Part shown: positions 2,214-26,925 of the stretch, one piece after another
How positions within the stretch are numbered: the first letter of the stretch is position 1
Layout: each line of letters opens with the position of its first letter
Assembly: GCA_945923775.1 (NCBI GenBank)
Contig: CAMELR010000015.1
Coordinates: forward strand, 1 to 58,130
Length of the DNA stretch: 58,130 bases
DNA from: an uncultured Clostridia bacterium
GTDB taxonomy: Bacteria; Bacillota; Clostridia; Oscillospirales; Ruminococcaceae
Reading direction: 5' to 3'
Notes under the pieces: generated by a model
Database searches by the model: none
Told to the model about the DNA's origin: nothing
Seen by the model: only the letters and a program-made list of their open reading frames with translations
Made by a program: the position numbers and the translations under genes

Positions 2214-3392
2214 TCAGTGATGGAACAGACGAATGCCTGTGAATGCCATTGTAATGCCGTACTTGTTGCAGACTTCGATAACGTTATCGTCGCGGATAGA
2301 GCCGCCGGGCTGCGCGATGTACTGCACGCCGCTCTTGTGCGCTCTCTCGATGTTGTCGCCGAACGGGAAGAACGCGTCAGAGCCAAGGGAAACGCCCTTC
2401 ATCGTGTCGAGCCAAGCGCGCTTCTCCTCGCGGGTGAAAACAGCGGGCTTTACCTTGAAGAACTTCTGCCATTCGCCCTCAGCGAGAACGTCCATGTAAT
2501 CGTCGCCGATGTAGAGGTCGATGGTGTTGTCGCGGTCAGCGCGGCGGATACCGTCAACGAACTGAAGTCCCATTACCTGCGGGGACTGTCTGAGATACCA
2601 GTTGTCAGCCTTGGTTCCTGCAAGACGTGTGCAGTGGATACGTGACTGCTGACCAGCCCCGATACCGATCGCCTGGCCTCCGCATGCATAAGCGACAGAG
2701 TTGGACTGAGTGTACTTGAGCGTGATGAGCGCGATGGCAAGGTCGTGCTTTGCGCTCTCAGGGAGATCCTTAGCCTCGGTGGGAATATTCGCGAACAGCT
2801 CGTCGTTTATAACGAGTTCGTTTCTGCCCTGCTCGAATGTGATTCCGTAAACCTGCTTGCGCTCGATCTGAGCGGGAACATAATCAGGGTCGATCTTGAT
2901 TATGTTGTAGTTGCCCTTTTTCTTGCTCTTGAGTATCTCAAGAGCCTCAGGCTCGTAACCGGGAGCTATAACGCCGTCAGAAACCTCTCTGTGGATTATT
3001 CGTGCAGTAGAAACGTCGCAGACATCAGACAGCGCAATGAAATCACCGTAGCTGCTCATTCTGTCGGCGCCCCTGGCTCTTGCGTAAGCGCATGCGAGGG
3101 GGGAAAGCTCACCGAGGTCGTCCACCCAGTAGATCTTTGCGAGGGTGTCGGTCAGCGGGAGACCGATAGCGGCGCCTGCCGGAGAAACATGCTTGAAGCT
3201 TGTGGCAGCAGGGTAGCCGGTAGCTGCCTTGAGCTCCTTTACAAGCTGCCAGCCGTTGAATGCGTCGAGGAAGTTGATGTAGCCGGGACGGCCGTTCAGA
3301 ACCTCGATGGGAAGCTCAGCACCGTTTTCCATGTAGATTCTGGCGGGCTTCTGGTTGGGGTTGCAGCCGTACTTTAATTCGAATTCCTTCAT
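2214..3392 (-). CDS. Stand-alone AICAR formyltransferase (PurH C-terminal domain type)
   Basis: The 392-residue protein matches only the transformylase half of bifunctional PurH. It transfers a formyl group from 10-formyl-THF to AICAR, giving FAICAR. The catalytic Lys-His motif is visible as FKHVSPAGAAIG (usual form KHVNPCGVAIG). The roughly 200-residue IMP cyclohydrolase domain of PurH is absent. The next gene upstream in the operon is a PurO-type cyclohydrolase 12 bases away, which would supply the missing step. The C-terminal part contains GQQSRIHCTRLA, typical of this family. Stand-alone versions are known in some Clostridia. The ATG is preceded by GGAG. Function is confident; symbols vary (purH or purV). 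Confidence 0.93.
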   Translation of the reverse strand: MKEFELKYGCNPNQKPARIYMENGAELPIEVLNGRPGYINFLDAFNGWQLVKELKAATGYPAATSFKHVSPAGAAIGLPLTDTLAKIYWVDDLGELSPLACAYARARGADRMSSYGDFIALSDVCDVSTARIIHREVSDGVIAPGYEPEALEILKSKKKGNYNIIKIDPDYVPAQIERKQVYGITFEQGRNELVINDELFANIPTEAKDLPESAKHDLAIALITLKYTQSNSVAYACGGQAIGIGAGQQSRIHCTRLAGTKADNWYLRQSPQVMGLQFVDGIRRADRDNTIDLYIGDDYMDVLAEGEWQKFFKVKPAVFTREEKRAWLDTMKGVSLGSDAFFPFGDNIERAHKSGVQYIAQPGGSIRDDNVIEVCNKYGITMAFTGIRLFHH

Positions 3393-3404: not shown

Positions 3405-4139
3405 TTATACGTTCTTATTTACAATTCTGCTGTCGTACTTTCCTGTTTCCAGGTCGATGTAACGCACGAACAGAGAAACCTTGTTGTCCTTGTTAAGATT
3501 GCTCCAGAGGTAATCGGTAAGCTTGTCGATGTCAATATCGGGAATGATAACGTTCTTCGGCTCGCCTTCAAAGCTGGGAAGTCTGCGTACGCCGTCCTGC
3601 TCTATCTCGTCGCCCGCATAGGTGTGGATAAAGCTGCCCTTTCCTGCCATGGGATTGCTGTAGGCGTATGTGTATCTGCGGCAGGAGCTTCCGTCGCCGT
3701 CAGCGGATTTCAGAATTGACATTGCGTAGTTCATAGCGCCGTTCTCAAGGTGGATTATACCGGAAATACGCGGTGTGTAGTTGGGCTTGTCGTCCTCGAA
3801 TTCACGGGTGCGCAGGGACTGCTCGAAAGTCATCTGCTTGTCCATCAGCTCGTATATGGTGTCGGTCTGGTCGCCGTTGGTGACGATGGTCTTGTTGCCG
3901 AGAACACGTACCGGAGCGTAAATGATAAGGTGCGGATCCACCATCTTGGAGGGGTCGAACGCCTGGGTGCGGATACCCTCTCCGTCCTCAACGAAAACGC
4001 GGTTGCGGCTGTTCTCGCTTCTGCCCATGATGAAGTAAGCGGTGACTGCCTTCCTGCCGTCAGGGGACTTGCCGATGATTATTCCTCTGCCGTGGTAGGC
4101 AAGGGAATTGAGTTCCTTGTCAAGCTCAATGTAGTTCAT
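3405..4139 (-). CDS. purO: IMP cyclohydrolase, archaeal PurO type
   Basis: The 244-residue protein is not related to the PurH N-terminal domain. It fits the PurO family (IMP_cyclohyd), first defined in methanogens: an N-terminal YHGRGIIIGKSPDGRKAVTAY region with the GRSENSRNR motif, a central DPSKMVDPHLIIY, then the ISGIIH and YAYSNPMAGKGSFIHTY segments. It would close FAICAR to IMP, the last step of de novo synthesis. It is adjacent to the stand-alone formyltransferase, so the two genes together replace bifunctional PurH. Length is somewhat longer than archaeal PurO. It starts at an ATG with a GAAAGGAT site. Confidence 0.88.
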   Translation of the reverse strand: MNYIELDKELNSLAYHGRGIIIGKSPDGRKAVTAYFIMGRSENSRNRVFVEDGEGIRTQAFDPSKMVDPHLIIYAPVRVLGNKTIVTNGDQTDTIYELMDKQMTFEQSLRTREFEDDKPNYTPRISGIIHLENGAMNYAMSILKSADGDGSSCRRYTYAYSNPMAGKGSFIHTYAGDEIEQDGVRRLPSFEGEPKNVIIPDIDIDKLTDYLWSNLNKDNKVSLFVRYIDLETGKYDSRIVNKNV

Positions 4140-4900: not shown

Positions 4901-5404
4901 TCAACCCTCCCCGACGTAGTTCCAGGATTTCCGGAGAATCTTCTCGTCCCACGGAGATACCCCGATATACTCCCCGACATATACCGCCTGTTCACCGCGA
5001 ACTGTCCATTCGATGTACTGGTCAGCGACGGGGGAGAACGCGAATTTCACGCTGAACGCCGCCGGAGAATCCTCCTCGGAAAGAAGCCGGGACGACTGCG
5101 TATGCAGTTCCACTGGAACAATGAAAGAACCAACGTTCTGCGTGCTGAATTCGATAACGTCAAACGCGAATTCGCCCGCGTGTTCCTCTAACATATCGTT
5201 CAGATAGTCAGCAGTCGCCTGGCGGAGCTTTTCTGAGATGTCCTCAGGCAGGGTATCAAAATATTCTGTACACCTGGTGAGATACTCCTCGCCGACATTC
5301 TTCCCATACAGCATTACTTCCGCGCCAAATTGTGACGAATAAAGCACGCCCTCGATGGTGTTGAAATAATCAGCGCTTTCTCCGTTGATAACGACCCGGC
5401 TCAT
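4901..5404 (-). CDS. Hypothetical protein within the purine operon
   Basis: The 167-residue acidic protein has no signal peptide or membrane segment. It is predicted to be mostly mixed alpha/beta, with a helical middle (about residues 40-80) and beta-like segments rich in aromatic residues near the C-terminus. I do not recognise a family. The start overlaps the purN stop as ATGA, so translation is likely coupled to purN. Its place between purN and the methyltransferase indicates cotranscription, but gives no function. Confidence 0.75.
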   Translation of the reverse strand: MSRVVINGESADYFNTIEGVLYSSQFGAEVMLYGKNVGEEYLTRCTEYFDTLPEDISEKLRQATADYLNDMLEEHAGEFAFDVIEFSTQNVGSFIVPVELHTQSSRLLSEEDSPAAFSVKFAFSPVADQYIEWTVRGEQAVYVGEYIGVSPWDEKILRKSWNYVGEG

Positions 5405-6036: not shown

Positions 6037-6579
6037 CTATTCCCCGGTCAGGGATATCTCAACGCAGTTGTATCCGCCGTCGTCCGGAGTTTCTCCGGAG
6101 AAGGGGTCTGTGTATTCCGCAATAACGGTGTACCCTCCAAGAACCAGCTCACGGAAGAACTCGCTGTCAACGCCTTGCATGATCGCTTCCTGCCAGGGCT
6201 GACCGTTTATCGTCAGAACTCCGCTGAACATTTTCTTGGGGGAGTGCTTCAGTTCCAGCGTGTTACGGAACATAAAGCCGAAGCTGCTTATAACCTTGCC
6301 GTTCCTGGTGTAGCAGTATATACCGAGGTCGTCCCAGGTGTAGTTGATGCAGTTTGTGACCATACCCTCGCCGTAGCTGTTTTCCAGAAATTCCTTTGTC
6401 TCGGCGGAGGTGTGGTATTTCTTGCCGCGTGGTGTGCCGAGGAGCTTTTCAGCCGCCTCGAGATGGACGAGCACGTCAAGCTTTGTGCCGTTGATCACCA
6501 TGCCGTCTTTTGAAATATCGACCACACACTGCTCCCCGGTGAAGGGAGCAGCGGTCTTTCTTTTAAATAAACCGAACAT
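6037..6579 (-). CDS. Hypothetical protein between purM and purN
   Basis: The 180-residue soluble protein starts MFGLFKRK. It has a central GKKYHTS / YTWDDLGIYCYT region and a C-terminal DDGGYNCVEISL strand. The arrangement (short beta strands, a WDD-x-GI-x-CY motif, a repeat near INGTKL/INGQPW) vaguely resembles DUF7738-like proteins, but I cannot assign it. Its ATG overlaps the purM stop by one base (TAATG), implying translational coupling with purM. Gene order suggests it is a fixed member of this organism's purine operon. Confidence 0.75.
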   Translation of the reverse strand: MFGLFKRKTAAPFTGEQCVVDISKDGMVINGTKLDVLVHLEAAEKLLGTPRGKKYHTSAETKEFLENSYGEGMVTNCINYTWDDLGIYCYTRNGKVISSFGFMFRNTLELKHSPKKMFSGVLTINGQPWQEAIMQGVDSEFFRELVLGGYTVIAEYTDPFSGETPDDGGYNCVEISLTGE

Positions 6580-7685: not shown

Positions 7686-9110
7686 TCATTCCTCGAACTT
7701 CGTTTCAAATTTGTCTTTGGGGATCTCCTTCGGTACGTCGATAGGGTACTTACCGGTAAAGCAGCCTGAGCAGAAGCCGCAGCCCGCGTTCTCGGCGATT
7801 TTAACAACGCTGTCGGTACTGAGGAATCCCAGGGAATCAACGCCGATGATCTTTGCAATTTCCTCAACTGAATGCTTGTTCGCAATGAGGTTCTCCTTGC
7901 TGTCGATGTCGGTTCCGAAGAAGCACTCGCTTATGAACGGCGGGGAGGAGATACGCATGTGGATCTCAGTAGCCCCGGCGTGGCGGAGTAACTTCACGAC
8001 CTTAGCCGAGGTAGTTCCGCGCACGATACTGTCGTCGATAAGGACGACGCGCTTGCCCTTTACGGTCTCCGAAATTGCATTCAGCTTGATTTTAACGGAG
8101 TTTTCGCGCATTCCCTGGGTCGGCTGAATGAACGTCCTGCCTATGTAGCGGTTCTTGACGAAGCCGACGCCGTAGGGGATACCGCTCTGCTGGGCGAATC
8201 CGAGCGCAGCGTCAAGTCCGCTGTCAGGGCAGCCGATAACAACATCAGCCTGAACGGGGTGCTCAAGCGCAAGGTAATGCCCGGCGCGAAGCCTTGCACG
8301 ATGTACGCTTGCTCCCTCGATGACCGAATCAGGACGAGCGAAATATATGAATTCAAACACGCACATTGAGCTTTTCTGACCGCAGTGCGTTCTGATGGTC
8401 TGTATGCCGTTTTCGTCCACGACAACTATCTCGCCGGGTTCAACGTCTCTGACGAACTCAGCGCCGATGCTGTCGAGTGCGCAGCTCTCCGAAGCGAACA
8501 CGTAGCCCGCGTCGTCCGGGAGCCTGCCCATGCACAGCGGGCGGAATCCCTGGGGATCTCTTGCTGCGATGAGCTTTTTGGGCGACATCACAACGAGTGA
8601 GTAAGCGCCCTTTATTTTGTACATGGCTTTCTCGACCGCTTCCTGAATGGAGCCGGTCTCGAGGCGTGCCTCGGTAACTGCGTAGGATATGACCTCAGTA
8701 TCGCTTGTGCTGTGGAAGATAGCGCCTTTCAGCTCGTACTGCCTTCTAAGCTCGAGTGCGTTTATGAGATTTCCGTTGTGCGCGATGGCGAGCGCGCCCT
8801 TTACGTGGCGGACGGTCATGGGCTGACAGTTCGCGGTATTTACGTTACCCGTTGTGGAGTAGCGCACATGACCGACTGCGATCCTGCCCTGACCGAACTC
8901 CGAAAGAACGCGTTCGGTGAACACTTCGTTCACAAGTCCAAGACCCTTGTGAGTCTTGAACACGCCGCGGTCGTTGACAACGATTCCGCAGCTTTCCTGA
9001 CCTCTGTGCTGAAGCGCATACAGTCCGAAATAAGCGGAGTGCGCCACATCGGACGGCGTATTGCAGTAAATGCCGAATACGCCGCATTCCTCGTGTATAT
9101 TACCTGACAA
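7686..9110 (-). CDS. purF: Amidophosphoribosyltransferase (catalytic copy)
   Basis: The 474-residue enzyme makes phosphoribosylamine from PRPP and glutamine, the committed step. The N-terminal nucleophile is Cys9 in ECGVFGIY, implying removal of an 8-residue propeptide. Glutamine-site motifs are intact: GHVRYSTTG, AHNGNL and SDTEV. The PRPP loop is VVLIDDSIVRGTT. Cysteines matching the B. subtilis-type Fe-S cluster are present (MCVFEF, SECFFG, CGFCSGCF). It follows a PurF paralog by 6 bases, so both subunits should be made together. Confidence 0.96.
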   Translation of the reverse strand: MSGNIHEECGVFGIYCNTPSDVAHSAYFGLYALQHRGQESCGIVVNDRGVFKTHKGLGLVNEVFTERVLSEFGQGRIAVGHVRYSTTGNVNTANCQPMTVRHVKGALAIAHNGNLINALELRRQYELKGAIFHSTSDTEVISYAVTEARLETGSIQEAVEKAMYKIKGAYSLVVMSPKKLIAARDPQGFRPLCMGRLPDDAGYVFASESCALDSIGAEFVRDVEPGEIVVVDENGIQTIRTHCGQKSSMCVFEFIYFARPDSVIEGASVHRARLRAGHYLALEHPVQADVVIGCPDSGLDAALGFAQQSGIPYGVGFVKNRYIGRTFIQPTQGMRENSVKIKLNAISETVKGKRVVLIDDSIVRGTTSAKVVKLLRHAGATEIHMRISSPPFISECFFGTDIDSKENLIANKHSVEEIAKIIGVDSLGFLSTDSVVKIAENAGCGFCSGCFTGKYPIDVPKEIPKDKFETKFEE

Positions 9111-9116
9111 TTGGGA

Positions 9117-10541
9117 TCATTCCTTTCCGTTCCAGCAGTAGCTGCAAAGCCCGCTTTCAGGAAGTCCGACAGCCTTTACGGTACCCTCAAGAGACTGGAA
9201 TTCAAGCGAGGTGAGCTTGAGCCGCTTGCAGATCTCGGATCTGAGGCGCTGACCGCGTTCGGTGTTGGTGTCGCTGTACTCGTTGATGTACTTGACGCCG
9301 TCCTCGCCTTCGAATTCATGGATTATCCGGCGCGCGATAAGATCAAGCTCGGAGGTGCTGCGTGAGAAGTTAAGGTACTTGCAGCCATACATGATAGGAG
9401 GACATGCGGAGCGCATGTGTACTTCCTTAGCACCGTTGGCGTACAGGAACTCAACAGTTTCGCGGAGCTGAGTGCCTCTTACAATGCTGTCGTCGACAAA
9501 CAGGAGCTTTTTCCCCTCGATAAGCTCGTGAACGGGGATAAGCTTCATCTTTGCAACCTTGTTTCTCATGGACTGGCTCTGCGGCATAAAGCTGCGGGGC
9601 CATGTGGGGGTGTACTTTATAAAGGGGCGTGCAAACGGAATGCCGCTTCTGTTTGCGTAACCGATTGCATGCGGAACGCCTGAATCCGGAACGCCGCAGA
9701 TGAAGTCAACATCGGGCAGGTTGCCGCTCTGGATATCGTGTTCAGCCATGATCTCGCCGTTTCTGGTGCGCATGGTCTCAACGGTGACTCCCTCGTATAC
9801 CGAGTTGGGGTAGCCGTAGTATGTCCACAGGAAGGTGCAGATCTTGAGGTCGTTGATGTGACCCTCGCTGAGCACCTCTGCGCGCTTGGAGGTTATCTTC
9901 ACGATCTCGCCGGGGAGCATTTCACGGTAGATCTCGTATCCTAGCTTCTGGAATGCGAAGCTCTCAAAGGAAACGCAGTATCCGTCGTCGCGCCTTCCTA
10001 TTATAATAGGAAGTCTGCCGTTCTTGTCCCGGGCAGCAATGATACCGTCCTCAGTCAGGATAAGCAGGGACATTGTGCCCTTGATCTTTTCCTGAGCATA
10101 CTTGATTCCGTCGACGATGTTGTCGCGCTGTGCGATGAGTCCGCCGATGAGCGTGGAAGAATTAACCTTGCCGCTGCTCATTGCTTCGAAACTTGCGCTG
10201 GAATTGCTGAGCAGCTCGTTGCAAAGCTCCTCATCGTTGTTGATTATGCCGATGTTGCATACCGCGTAGGTTCCGAGCCTGGACTTGAGAAGGATAGGCT
10301 GCGGGTCAGTATCGCTGATGCTGCCAATGCAGAGATTGCCTTCCATTGCGTCTACGTCGCTCTCGAACTTTGTGCGGAACGGAGAGTTTTCAATGCTGTG
10401 AATACTTCTCTGGAAGCCCTTCTCAGGGGAATATGCAGTCATACCGCCTCTGCGTGTGCCGAGGTGAGAATGATAGTCGGTGCCGAAAAATACGTCGCTG
10501 ATACAGTTGTGTTCAGCAGCCGCTCCAAAAAAACCGCCCAT
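9117..10541 (-). CDS. PurF paralog lacking the glutaminase active site
   Basis: The 474 residues align with PurF along the full length, but the N-terminus is MGGFFG where PurF has CGVFG, so the nucleophilic Cys is absent. The other glutamine-site motifs are also changed: IGSISDTD instead of HVRYSTTG, NIGIINND instead of AHNGNL, and VNSSTLIG instead of TSDTEV. The PRPP loop is intact (LLFVDDSIVRGTQ) and the cluster cysteines are kept (KICTF, MYGCKY, CSYC). It should not hydrolyse glutamine. It may be a regulatory or structural partner of the adjacent PurF, or an ammonia-dependent enzyme. It sits directly upstream of purF in the operon. Confidence 0.88.
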   Translation of the reverse strand: MGGFFGAAAEHNCISDVFFGTDYHSHLGTRRGGMTAYSPEKGFQRSIHSIENSPFRTKFESDVDAMEGNLCIGSISDTDPQPILLKSRLGTYAVCNIGIINNDEELCNELLSNSSASFEAMSSGKVNSSTLIGGLIAQRDNIVDGIKYAQEKIKGTMSLLILTEDGIIAARDKNGRLPIIIGRRDDGYCVSFESFAFQKLGYEIYREMLPGEIVKITSKRAEVLSEGHINDLKICTFLWTYYGYPNSVYEGVTVETMRTRNGEIMAEHDIQSGNLPDVDFICGVPDSGVPHAIGYANRSGIPFARPFIKYTPTWPRSFMPQSQSMRNKVAKMKLIPVHELIEGKKLLFVDDSIVRGTQLRETVEFLYANGAKEVHMRSACPPIMYGCKYLNFSRSTSELDLIARRIIHEFEGEDGVKYINEYSDTNTERGQRLRSEICKRLKLTSLEFQSLEGTVKAVGLPESGLCSYCWNGKE

Positions 10542-11428: not shown

Positions 11429-11932
11429 TTAGATTTCCTTTGCAGTTTCCTGCATTTTTGCGTCAGCGGCGAGGTTCTTCTCGTTCTGCTTCTTCTTGAA
11501 AGCAAGCAGCTTTTCCGCGATGGAATCGTCGCTTACCGCGAGGATCTCCGCCGCGAGATAGCCGGCGTTGGCAGCCGCGTCGATGCCTACTGTTGCAACG
11601 GGAACTCCCGGGGGCATCATAACGGAGCTGAGCAGCGCGTCAACGCCCTCGAGCGCCTTAGCCTTTACAGGGATAGCGATTACCGGTAGGGTGGTGTTGC
11701 CTGCGATGGCTCCCGCGAGGTGAGCCGCCATGCCTGCTGCTGCGATGATAACTCCGAAACCGTTCGCGCGTGCGTTCTGAGCGAACTCCGCAACCTCCTT
11801 AGGGGAGCGGTGAGCGGAAAGCACTCTCATCTCGAACGGGATACCGAACTCCTTGAGAGCTTCAGCAGCCTTGCGTACAACGGGGAAGTCGCTGTCGCTG
11901 CCCATTACTATGCCGACTTTTTTCTCTGACAT
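11429..11932 (-). CDS. purE: 5-(carboxyamino)imidazole ribonucleotide mutase
   Basis: The 167-residue enzyme provides CAIR for PurC. The GSDSDFPVV loop, the LSAHRSP motif with the catalytic His, and [14 protein letters not shown] are intact. It is the first structural gene of the purine operon. It lies 24 bases downstream of an intrinsic terminator hairpin, so its expression should depend on read-through. The ribosome binding site is AAGGAAG. No purK is visible nearby; whether the enzyme uses N5-CAIR or AIR plus CO2 cannot be settled from the motifs I checked. Confidence 0.96.
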
Positions 11933-11956
11933 ATTATCTTCCTTTCGTCTGCTTGA

Positions 11957-11988
11957 TAATAAAAATAGCTGTATGCGGAATACAGCTA
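11957..11988 (-). terminator. Leader terminator (attenuator) upstream of purE
   Basis: On the minus strand TAGCTGTAT and ATACAGCTA form a perfect 9-pair stem with loop TCCGC, followed by TTTTTATTATC. It stands between the purine promoter and purE, so it can stop transcription before the operon. The loop plus 3' arm is complementary to the leader segment at 12041-12057. Confidence 0.8.
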
Positions 11989-11993
11989 AAAAG

Positions 11994-12080
11994 TTACAAT
12001 TGTGTTATGGTTGCACTTATTCTGTAAAAAGAAGCCGTAATTCCGCCAAAGCAGCTATGATGTGAGTTCGGACGCTTCAT
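11994..12080 (-). CDS. Possible 28-residue leader peptide in the purE leader
   Basis: The ATG at 12080 is preceded by AGGGAG at good distance (8 bases after GGGAGA) and runs 28 codons to TAA at 11996-11994, seven bases before the terminator stem. The peptide begins MKRPNSHHSCFGG. It has no run of one amino acid. The ribosome binding site lies in the 5' arm of the long-range helix, and codons 8-14 cover the antiterminator segment. Translation would therefore affect folding. It could also be a chance ORF in a structured RNA. Confidence 0.35.
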   Translation of the reverse strand: MKRPNSHHSCFGGITASFYRISATITQL

Positions 12081-12150
12081 CTCATTGCTCTCCCTTTACA
12101 GTTTTTCCGCCGGGATATCCGGTCGGCAGGATAAATAAAACCATAAATAT

Positions 12151-12179
12151 ATTTTACTATATAATTGCCGGAATTTCAA
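12151..12179 (-). promoter_or_regulatory. Sigma-A promoter of the purine operon
   Basis: On the minus strand TTGAAA (12179-12174), a 17-base spacer, and TAAAAT (12156-12151). Expected start of transcription is near 12144. Confidence 0.7.
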
Positions 12180-26689: not shown

Positions 26690-26721
26690 AAAAAAACCTC
26701 CGCACCGGTGTGGTGCGAAGG
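26690..26721 (-). terminator. T-box terminator
   Basis: CCTTCGCACC and GGTGCGGAGG form a 10-pair stem (one G-T) with a 5-base loop, followed by seven T residues, 46 bases before the cysE start. Confidence 0.9.
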
Positions 26722-26925
26722 CGTTTTACCGCGGTTCCACTTCGCTTCGGGCATATGCCCCTCAAAGCCCCTTAACGCGGGGAAACGCAGACGGCTACTG
26801 TGATTTCGCCGGCCGGGCTCACAGCCGCACTTCGCCGGGGCCTTCCGCAGCGCTCTCACCAATGCGCCGCTCTCTGGGGGAGGGTGATCCGGGTACTCTG
26901 ACTGATCGAAGCCTTTGTTACAATT
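26690..26925 (-). promoter_or_regulatory. T-box leader, cysteine-specific, upstream of cysE-cysS
   Basis: The minus-strand leader contains an AGAGAG-type stem I region, a specifier segment CGAAGTGCGGC with the Cys codon TGC at 26829-26827, the conserved T-box antiterminator sequence GAAGTGGAACCGCGG (26743-26729), and the terminator above. Uncharged tRNA-Cys should stabilise the antiterminator and turn on cysE, cysS and probably the three following isomerase genes. Confidence 0.92.

Follow-up and report, generated by a model that had tools for sequence, protein, structure and literature searches.

The purE-led pur operon of Bacillus subtilis is preceded by a guanine riboswitch attenuator of the terminator type, and in leaders of the TnaC type the translation of a short leader ORF controls the downstream operon. 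In the pyrBI leader, RNA polymerase pauses at U-rich sites, and pausing depends on the supply of UTP. As described for E. coli pyrBI, tight coupling between ribosome and polymerase across the leader ORF prevents the terminator (PMC5021804). Two other cases are also close: the ilvB motif, initially a riboswitch candidate and later described as a short ORF controlling a terminator (PMC10272879, PMC11109978), and the B. subtilis vmlR and tlrB leaders, where polymerase pausing at the NusG motif is combined with attenuation in the response to antibiotics, tlrB having a leader peptide as well (PMC12288461).

Here we compare these systems with the leader of a purine operon from an uncultured Clostridia bacterium of the Ruminococcaceae, carried by a stretch of 58,130 nucleotides, the whole of which is called the window. 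The leader resembles pyrBI, with its pyrL leader, in that an ORF led by a Shine-Dalgarno sequence (SD) reaches an intrinsic terminator, and in that regulatory codons and a competing antiterminator are absent over the family, although alternative pairings are possible in the window and its two closest relatives. It differs from pyrBI in serving a purine operon in other bacteria, in having an enclosing helix (P1), and in that the nucleotide after its pause-like motif is A or G, where pyrBI has U-rich pauses. Terminator-type attenuation is common to this leader and to B. subtilis pur, but a purine riboswitch match is absent here, and a putative pause with attenuation is common to this leader and to vmlR and tlrB, while gene and motif differ. 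On balance, in view of the comparisons described below, we consider it somewhat more likely than not that the purine operon is controlled by translation-coupled transcription attenuation similar to that of pyrBI.

In the literature searched, which consisted of open-licence papers without their supplements, no published account of this leader was found, and leaders of the window's type were not found in the accessible sections of two surveys of noncoding RNA (PMC11109978, PMC8632094). Those sections of the first survey list candidate uORFs for ilvB and fthC, with a mention of pyrG, and the purine-related motif that they present, for which an anti-SD is given, precedes an operon for FGAM synthase (PMC11109978).

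A leader ORF ending at the terminator

The purine operon consists of purE, purC, a divergent purF-like gene, purF, purM, purN, genes for a PurO-type IMP cyclohydrolase and an AICAR transformylase, and guaA, three other genes being interspersed. Its first gene, purE (11429..11932, minus strand), starts at 11932. A preliminary description of this DNA had proposed an undescribed-looking attenuation leader before the operon, with a promoter and a 9-pair terminator upstream of purE. Both elements were located on the minus strand, in the order promoter, leader, terminator, purE, and the proposal was borne out, the leader having no match in Rfam. The promoter is sigma-70-like (TTGAAA-17 nt-TAAAAT, 12151..12179, minus strand), with 10 of 12 consensus matches. 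The terminator is a stem-loop of 9 pairs with a loop of 5 nt (TAGCTGTAT-TCCGC-ATACAGCTA, 11966..11988, minus strand), directly followed by the U-rich tail TTTTTATTAT (11956..11965, minus strand), and 9 of 9 pairs are kept in the five closest relatives. Folding of the leader gave z = -2.2 against shuffles.

Several features of the operon and its surroundings were recorded in their own right. PurF-type genes stand in tandem, with a standard PurF at 7686-9110 (minus strand; 524.7 bits) and a divergent PurF-like sequence at 9117-10541 (minus strand), whose 195.4 bits are far below the family cut-off of 350. Instead of the fused PurH, there are separate genes for IMP cyclohydrolase, which is of the PurO type (PF07826), and for AICAR transformylase, which stands alone (3405-4139 and 2214-3392, minus strand). 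Genes without an assigned function, DUF7738 and DUF6985 (6037-6579 and 4901-5404, minus strand), lie inside the operon, and a methyltransferase adjoins. At 26714-26918 (minus strand), a T-box leader barely at the Rfam cut-off (93.9 vs 93 bits) precedes ORFs that by eye resemble serine acetyltransferase and cysteinyl-tRNA synthetase, which is an ordinary arrangement.

The preliminary description overlooked a short ORF in the leader. This ORF (MKRPNSHHSCFGGITASFYRISATITQL, 11994..12080, minus strand) runs from ATG to TAA over 28 codons, has the SD GGGAG at 12094-12090 (minus strand), and its stop codon ends 5 nt upstream of the terminator; the stretch that had been described as enclosed by the helix P1 consists of this SD and the first part of the ORF. 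An SD and a short ORF before the terminator were also found in the purE upstream regions of relatives, and the layout from ORF to terminator is conserved. Many of the compared genomes are drafts, and genus and family labels are those assigned by the tool. The terminator filter kept 27 of the 30 leaders from the genus, and each of those dropped (L030, L141 and L149) has an ORF and a hairpin by eye. For the rest of the family, a match was obtained in 215 of 247 genomes, from which 69 leaders were picked in order of score, a non-random sample; 50 of them passed the filter, the failures being 10 with a terminator not near purE, 6 with none, and 3 that were ZTP-type by pattern. The ORF count used 49 of these other family leaders, and the whole-leader motif count used 44.

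An ORF was scored if it was SD-led, contained 12-60 codons and ended between -20 and +35 nt from the terminator, with any start codon accepted, and dinucleotide shuffles provided the expectation. Such ORFs were present in 25 of the 27 leaders of the genus (1.1 expected), in 43 of the 49 from the rest of the family (3.9 expected), and in 17 of 33 leaders that fall outside the family or belong to named records unplaced by family (2.0 expected). When ATG alone was accepted, the counts in the three sets were 24, 33 and 11, with expectations of 0.4, 1.4 and 0.7, and when each genus was represented by one leader, 29 of the 34 other genera of the family had the ORF (2.6 expected). Between the first SD-led ATG and the terminator, frame 0 was open in 56 of 59 leaders, compared with 17 and 27 of 59 for the other frames. 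One leader, L143, has the usual SD followed by an ORF of merely 5 codons. In L033, L036 and L038, which belong to one genus, the ORF appears by eye to span the whole terminator and to stop just past the T-run; in these, the automated scoring had picked another hairpin or another ORF.

A control amino acid was not found among the 1044 residues of 29 ORFs, in which Ser had the highest z (2.4), followed by Gly (2.2), and Leu was depleted (-3.2). The leader therefore differs from the trp, his and ilv amino-acid attenuators, since its peptides are not enriched in a control codon and an antiterminator is not found family-wide. The same two features separate it from ilvB-II and the ilvB uORF, which, in the accessible descriptions, combine peptides rich in the sensed amino acids with an antiterminator. 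At other purine genes of the genus (purL, purD, purA and guaB; 27 leaders), a clear ORF attenuator was not seen by eye. Terminator-like hairpins were noticed by eye just upstream of guaB in L267 and L271, both of the same genus, and an obvious leader ORF is absent there.

The enclosing helix and other pairings

The preliminary description had drawn three pairings in the leader, and comparison with relatives separated the enclosing helix P1, which covaries in the genus, from the antiterminator and the GC hairpin, neither of which is kept outside the closest relatives. The strands of P1 (5' strand 12090..12101, 3' strand 12022..12034, minus strand) form 12 of 12 standard pairs, 2 of them G-U. 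The 5' strand contains the SD of the ORF in the window, and the 3' strand lies inside the ORF, where it covaries with upstream sequence that includes or precedes the SD.

When six leaders were aligned by columns, merely 3 to 7 of the 12 pairs of P1 were found in the five relatives, because gaps introduced by MAFFT fell in its strands; the reading that P1 is not conserved, taken from this alignment, was overturned by alignment-free tests. Two-sided changes in the alignment numbered 2 in P1, 5 in the second antiterminator block and 7 in the GC hairpin, and stood among pairs that were mostly broken.

In a permutation test, for which L143, L146 and L147 were left out and the remaining 27 leaders of the genus were thinned at 60% identity to 17, 0 of 5000 permutations were as good as the true combination of strands, and the proposed 12-pair helix is thus genuine and covaries in the genus. 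Control segments just before and just after the motif at the end of P1 gave no pairing effect (z +1.5 and +0.2). Pairing with the leader's own partner was also compared with pairing to swapped partners, leaving out L146 and L147, which duplicate L144 over the final 200 nt, and setting the motif position by hand in L012 and L149. The mean z was -1.41 over 28 same-genus leaders, with no advantage of the own partner in L006 and L019. Pairing strength ranged from z -2.1 to -4.2 in 5 of 6 close leaders, L004 being the other, and averaged -1.09 +- 0.32 over 24 leaders. Examples of the different sequences that form the helix are AAACCCGT/ACGGGTTT in L012, TGTGCCGTA/TACGGCACA in L023 and AATACCGT/ACGGTATT in L142. 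In other genera, P1 is at most weak, with a per-genus shuffle z of -0.47 +- 0.15 and a per-leader swap z of -0.23 +- 0.11 (42 leaders).

The SD lies within P1 in the window and some close relatives, and in many other leaders the 5' strand is upstream of the SD. Over the genus (24 leaders), wider pairing between the SD and the ORF had a z of -0.54, weaker than that of the neighbouring upstream segment (-1.17), and over the family (43 leaders) the two were about equal (-0.59 and -0.39). Since pairing of the SD has no clear excess over that of the neighbouring segment, simple SD sequestration is not established as a rule.

That a covarying helix contains a short conserved motif is also what might be expected if an RNA-binding protein, acting as repressor or antiterminator, recognised P1 or the motif and controlled the terminator, with the ORF secondary. 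The ORF is conserved even where P1 is weak, and we regard such a protein as very unlikely to be the explanation.

The antiterminator had been placed at 12041..12057 (minus strand), and its two blocks do pair with the loop and 3' arm of the terminator as claimed. In the window, the duplex has an energy of -15.8 kcal/mol compared with a shuffle mean of -8.8, and 0 of 60 shuffles were as good. The five closest relatives, however, keep the blocks only in part, and the antiterminator is fair in L003 and absent in L002. Over the 49 family leaders, excess complementarity was absent for both targets (z 0.10 +- 0.13 and 0.09 +- 0.14). Within the genus, there was weak excess pairing to the 5' arm of the terminator (z -0.80 +- 0.17), with 4 of 27 leaders at rank <=0.05, among sequences that are related. 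Another pairing, TACGGCT with AGCTGTA of the terminator, is complete, with 7 of 7 pairs, in L001-L003, falls to 5 pairs in L004 and to a single pair in each of L005 and L006, and may be a local antiterminator of the three closest leaders. The GC hairpin is likewise present where it had been drawn (12107..12126, minus strand), but only 1 to 5 of its 7 pairs are kept in the five closest relatives.

The preliminary description had suggested that a metabolite of the purine pathway binds the domain enclosed by P1. A riboswitch of this kind would fit the covarying enclosing helix and the window's alternative pairing to the terminator loop and 3' arm, and a ZTP riboswitch does occupy the equivalent place in L010, from another family of the order. 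The enclosed part, however, is the SD and the start of a coding sequence, and most of it has changed even in L002, the closest relative (PurE 95% identical), in which the late segment of the ORF and the terminator hardly differ from those of the window; moreover, the alternative pairing is not conserved. The leader matched no Rfam family at the gathering score and gave chance-level matches alone at E up to 10, in agreement with the earlier failure to match it to the purine, ZTP, PRPP, THF or ykkC consensus. When 20 further loci were searched, Rfam likewise matched none of the 19 relatives with the same leader type, and the sole match was L010, a ZMP/ZTP riboswitch (RF01750) that stands before purE with a terminator. 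The other leaders labelled ZTP-type, 3 of them in the window's own family, are presumed to be so from a hand-written pattern, Rfam having confirmed L010, the sole such locus searched. Taken with the divergence of the enclosed part, these results leave an aptamer inside P1 very unlikely.

A recurring element at the end of P1

Where the 3' strand of P1 ends there is a pause-like motif, AGAATAAGTGCA (12012..12023, minus strand), with G-10, T-3 G-2 C-1 and A+1, which reads Arg-Ile-Ser-Ala in the frame of the ORF. A finer form of the pause consensus of RNA polymerase is G-11 G-10 ... T-3 G-2. The consensus pause of bacterial RNA polymerase is described as having G near -10, a pyrimidine at -1, and G or a purine at +1 (PMC10268239). 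The layout of the window's motif is similar, although the known consensus favours G at +1, where A is usual here. It differs from the NusG pause motif of B. subtilis, which is given as TTNTTT at -11 to -6 (PMC12288461).

Over the genus, TG[CT]A was present in 30 of 30 sequence segments and G-10 in 28 of 30, the segments having been picked by script with 2 or 3 misregistered. Because the motif of the genus is the P1 3' strand, pairing alone could account for part of this conservation. In the other family leaders, RG-N6-TGYA was found in 25 of 50 (4.8 expected), with a spacing that peaked at 6 and was also raised at 5 and 7. One leader per genus gave 17 of 34 (3.0 expected), compared with 2 of 34 when the opposite strand was scanned. 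Of the same 34 genera, 8 had the pattern with G at +1 (2.9 expected), 3 with C (2.1) and 3 with T (3.3), so that C and T were near background. Sites counted over whole leaders of 44 family members numbered 39 for A (7.6 expected), 19 for G (7.9), 11 for C (5.6) and 8 for T (9.2); the raised count for C speaks against a reading in which a purine must come next. Several leaders have two or three copies. The 12 ZTP-type leaders contained 1 site (1.7 expected), and the genome to which the window belongs was not enriched in the motif, with 5 matches against 9 for the reversed pattern.

A peptide reading of the element was also examined. Within the genus, one frame holds 24 of 28 sites; outside it, the frames are divided 16/12/10 over all leaders, and 12/6/3 over 21 sites when one leader per genus is taken, a bias to the frame used in the genus. 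Gly-Ile-x-[Ala/Val] occurred in 7 of 29 peptides (one leader per genus; 0.45 expected), compared with 1 and 2 in the other frames, and the looser G[IVFMT].[AV] in 13, 4 and 2 of 30 across frames, both patterns having been picked after the peptides were viewed. The bias in frame and the excess of GI.[AV] speak for a peptide signal. Third codon positions of Gly and Ile vary among the GI.[AV] peptides. In L014, from another family of the order, the peptide ends in GISASKFRP before the terminator, resembling the GISAYKIRF of L030 with other codons.

These observations raise the possibility of a stalling peptide, in which Phe/Tyr-Gly-Ile-x-Ala in the genus, and Gly-Ile-x-Ala/Val in several other genera, would arrest the ribosome, perhaps when a purine compound is sensed, and the stalled ribosome would control the terminator. 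The frame bias and the synonymous variation at Gly and Ile are in its favour, and the likeness of L014 is a lead for it. On the other side, the patterns are post hoc, and an all-against-all comparison of peptides from 30 genera, each represented by its first leader with an ORF, gave similarities of 0.54 +- 0.19 in frame 0, 0.48 +- 0.17 in frame +1 and 0.33 +- 0.16 in frame +2, so that an advantage of the coding frame is unclear. The element is read in another frame at 9 of the 21 sites of other genera, and also in L012 and L026, where the ORF still ends within the terminator. In addition, P1 covers conservation at the RNA level in the genus, and T-3 and A+1 are kept in 30 of 30 at third codon positions, where the peptide does not need them. 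A short in-frame stretch thus recurs here, as might be looked for in leaders of the TnaC type, but whole peptides are not clearly more alike in the coding frame than in the others, and the element occurs in other frames as well. We take the recurring element to be mainly a nucleic-acid signal, and regard control by a stalling peptide as a real but considerably less likely alternative.

Within the 83 nt scanned, half of the genera lack the motif, and the best-conserved features of the leader are the ORF, the position of its stop codon and the terminator. These facts are in keeping with a serious rival that has the same anatomy, namely that the attenuator senses general translation capacity (ribosome availability, antibiotics or amino-acid supply) rather than purine nucleotides, with the motif being merely the 3' strand of P1 or a pause that synchronises the ribosome. 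The spacing of the motif and the preference for a purine at +1 in other genera argue against it, and we hold it to be possible, but with well under even probability. It differs from attenuation governed by purine nucleotides in the sensing step alone, and the confidence that we place in the two overlaps.

Proposed control of the purine operon

Given a layout like that of pyrBI, we propose ribosome-coupled read-through as the mode of control. Sequence comparison established the anatomy from which we set out, that is, the ORF, P1 in the genus, the motif and the terminator, and from it we infer the steps as follows. RNA polymerase would pause near the motif, with the RNA 3' end at 12013. A ribosome close behind the polymerase would melt P1 and, on reaching the stop codon, would cover the 5' arm of the terminator, allowing read-through into purE. 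If the polymerase instead ran ahead, P1 and the terminator would form, and transcription would stop. Since P1 includes the SD in the window, late ribosomes should be blocked there, and the choice would be made once.

The nucleotide next to the putative pause is a purine, usually A, and for this reason low ATP, and perhaps low GTP, would be predicted to lengthen the pause, giving the ribosome time to arrive and turning the operon on when purines are short. Sensing of purine nucleotides through the pause is plausible, and is the weakest of the proposed steps. Extended to the whole family, it would make the leader a kinetic sensor of ATP or GTP, in which the length of the pause at RG-N6-TGYA decides whether the ribosome arrives in time, and ATP would be sensed without an aptamer; we offer this extension tentatively, and think it rather doubtful. 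According to the accessible part of a review on the ligands of riboswitches, none for ATP is known (PMC9971707).

Whether the element acts as nucleic acid or as peptide, the leader indicates that a covarying helix and a terminator before a biosynthetic operon are not necessarily a riboswitch. If the peptide reading were true, the leader would supply a candidate stalling peptide for purine control, and if the motif with its following purine acts as a pause, the sensing of ATP or GTP through polymerase kinetics would be directly testable. Should translation-coupled attenuation hold, the leader would match, for purines, a type of control established long ago for pyrimidine genes, and ribosome-coupled attenuation, best known from pyrimidine and amino-acid operons, would govern the purine operon in most of the examined genera of a large family.
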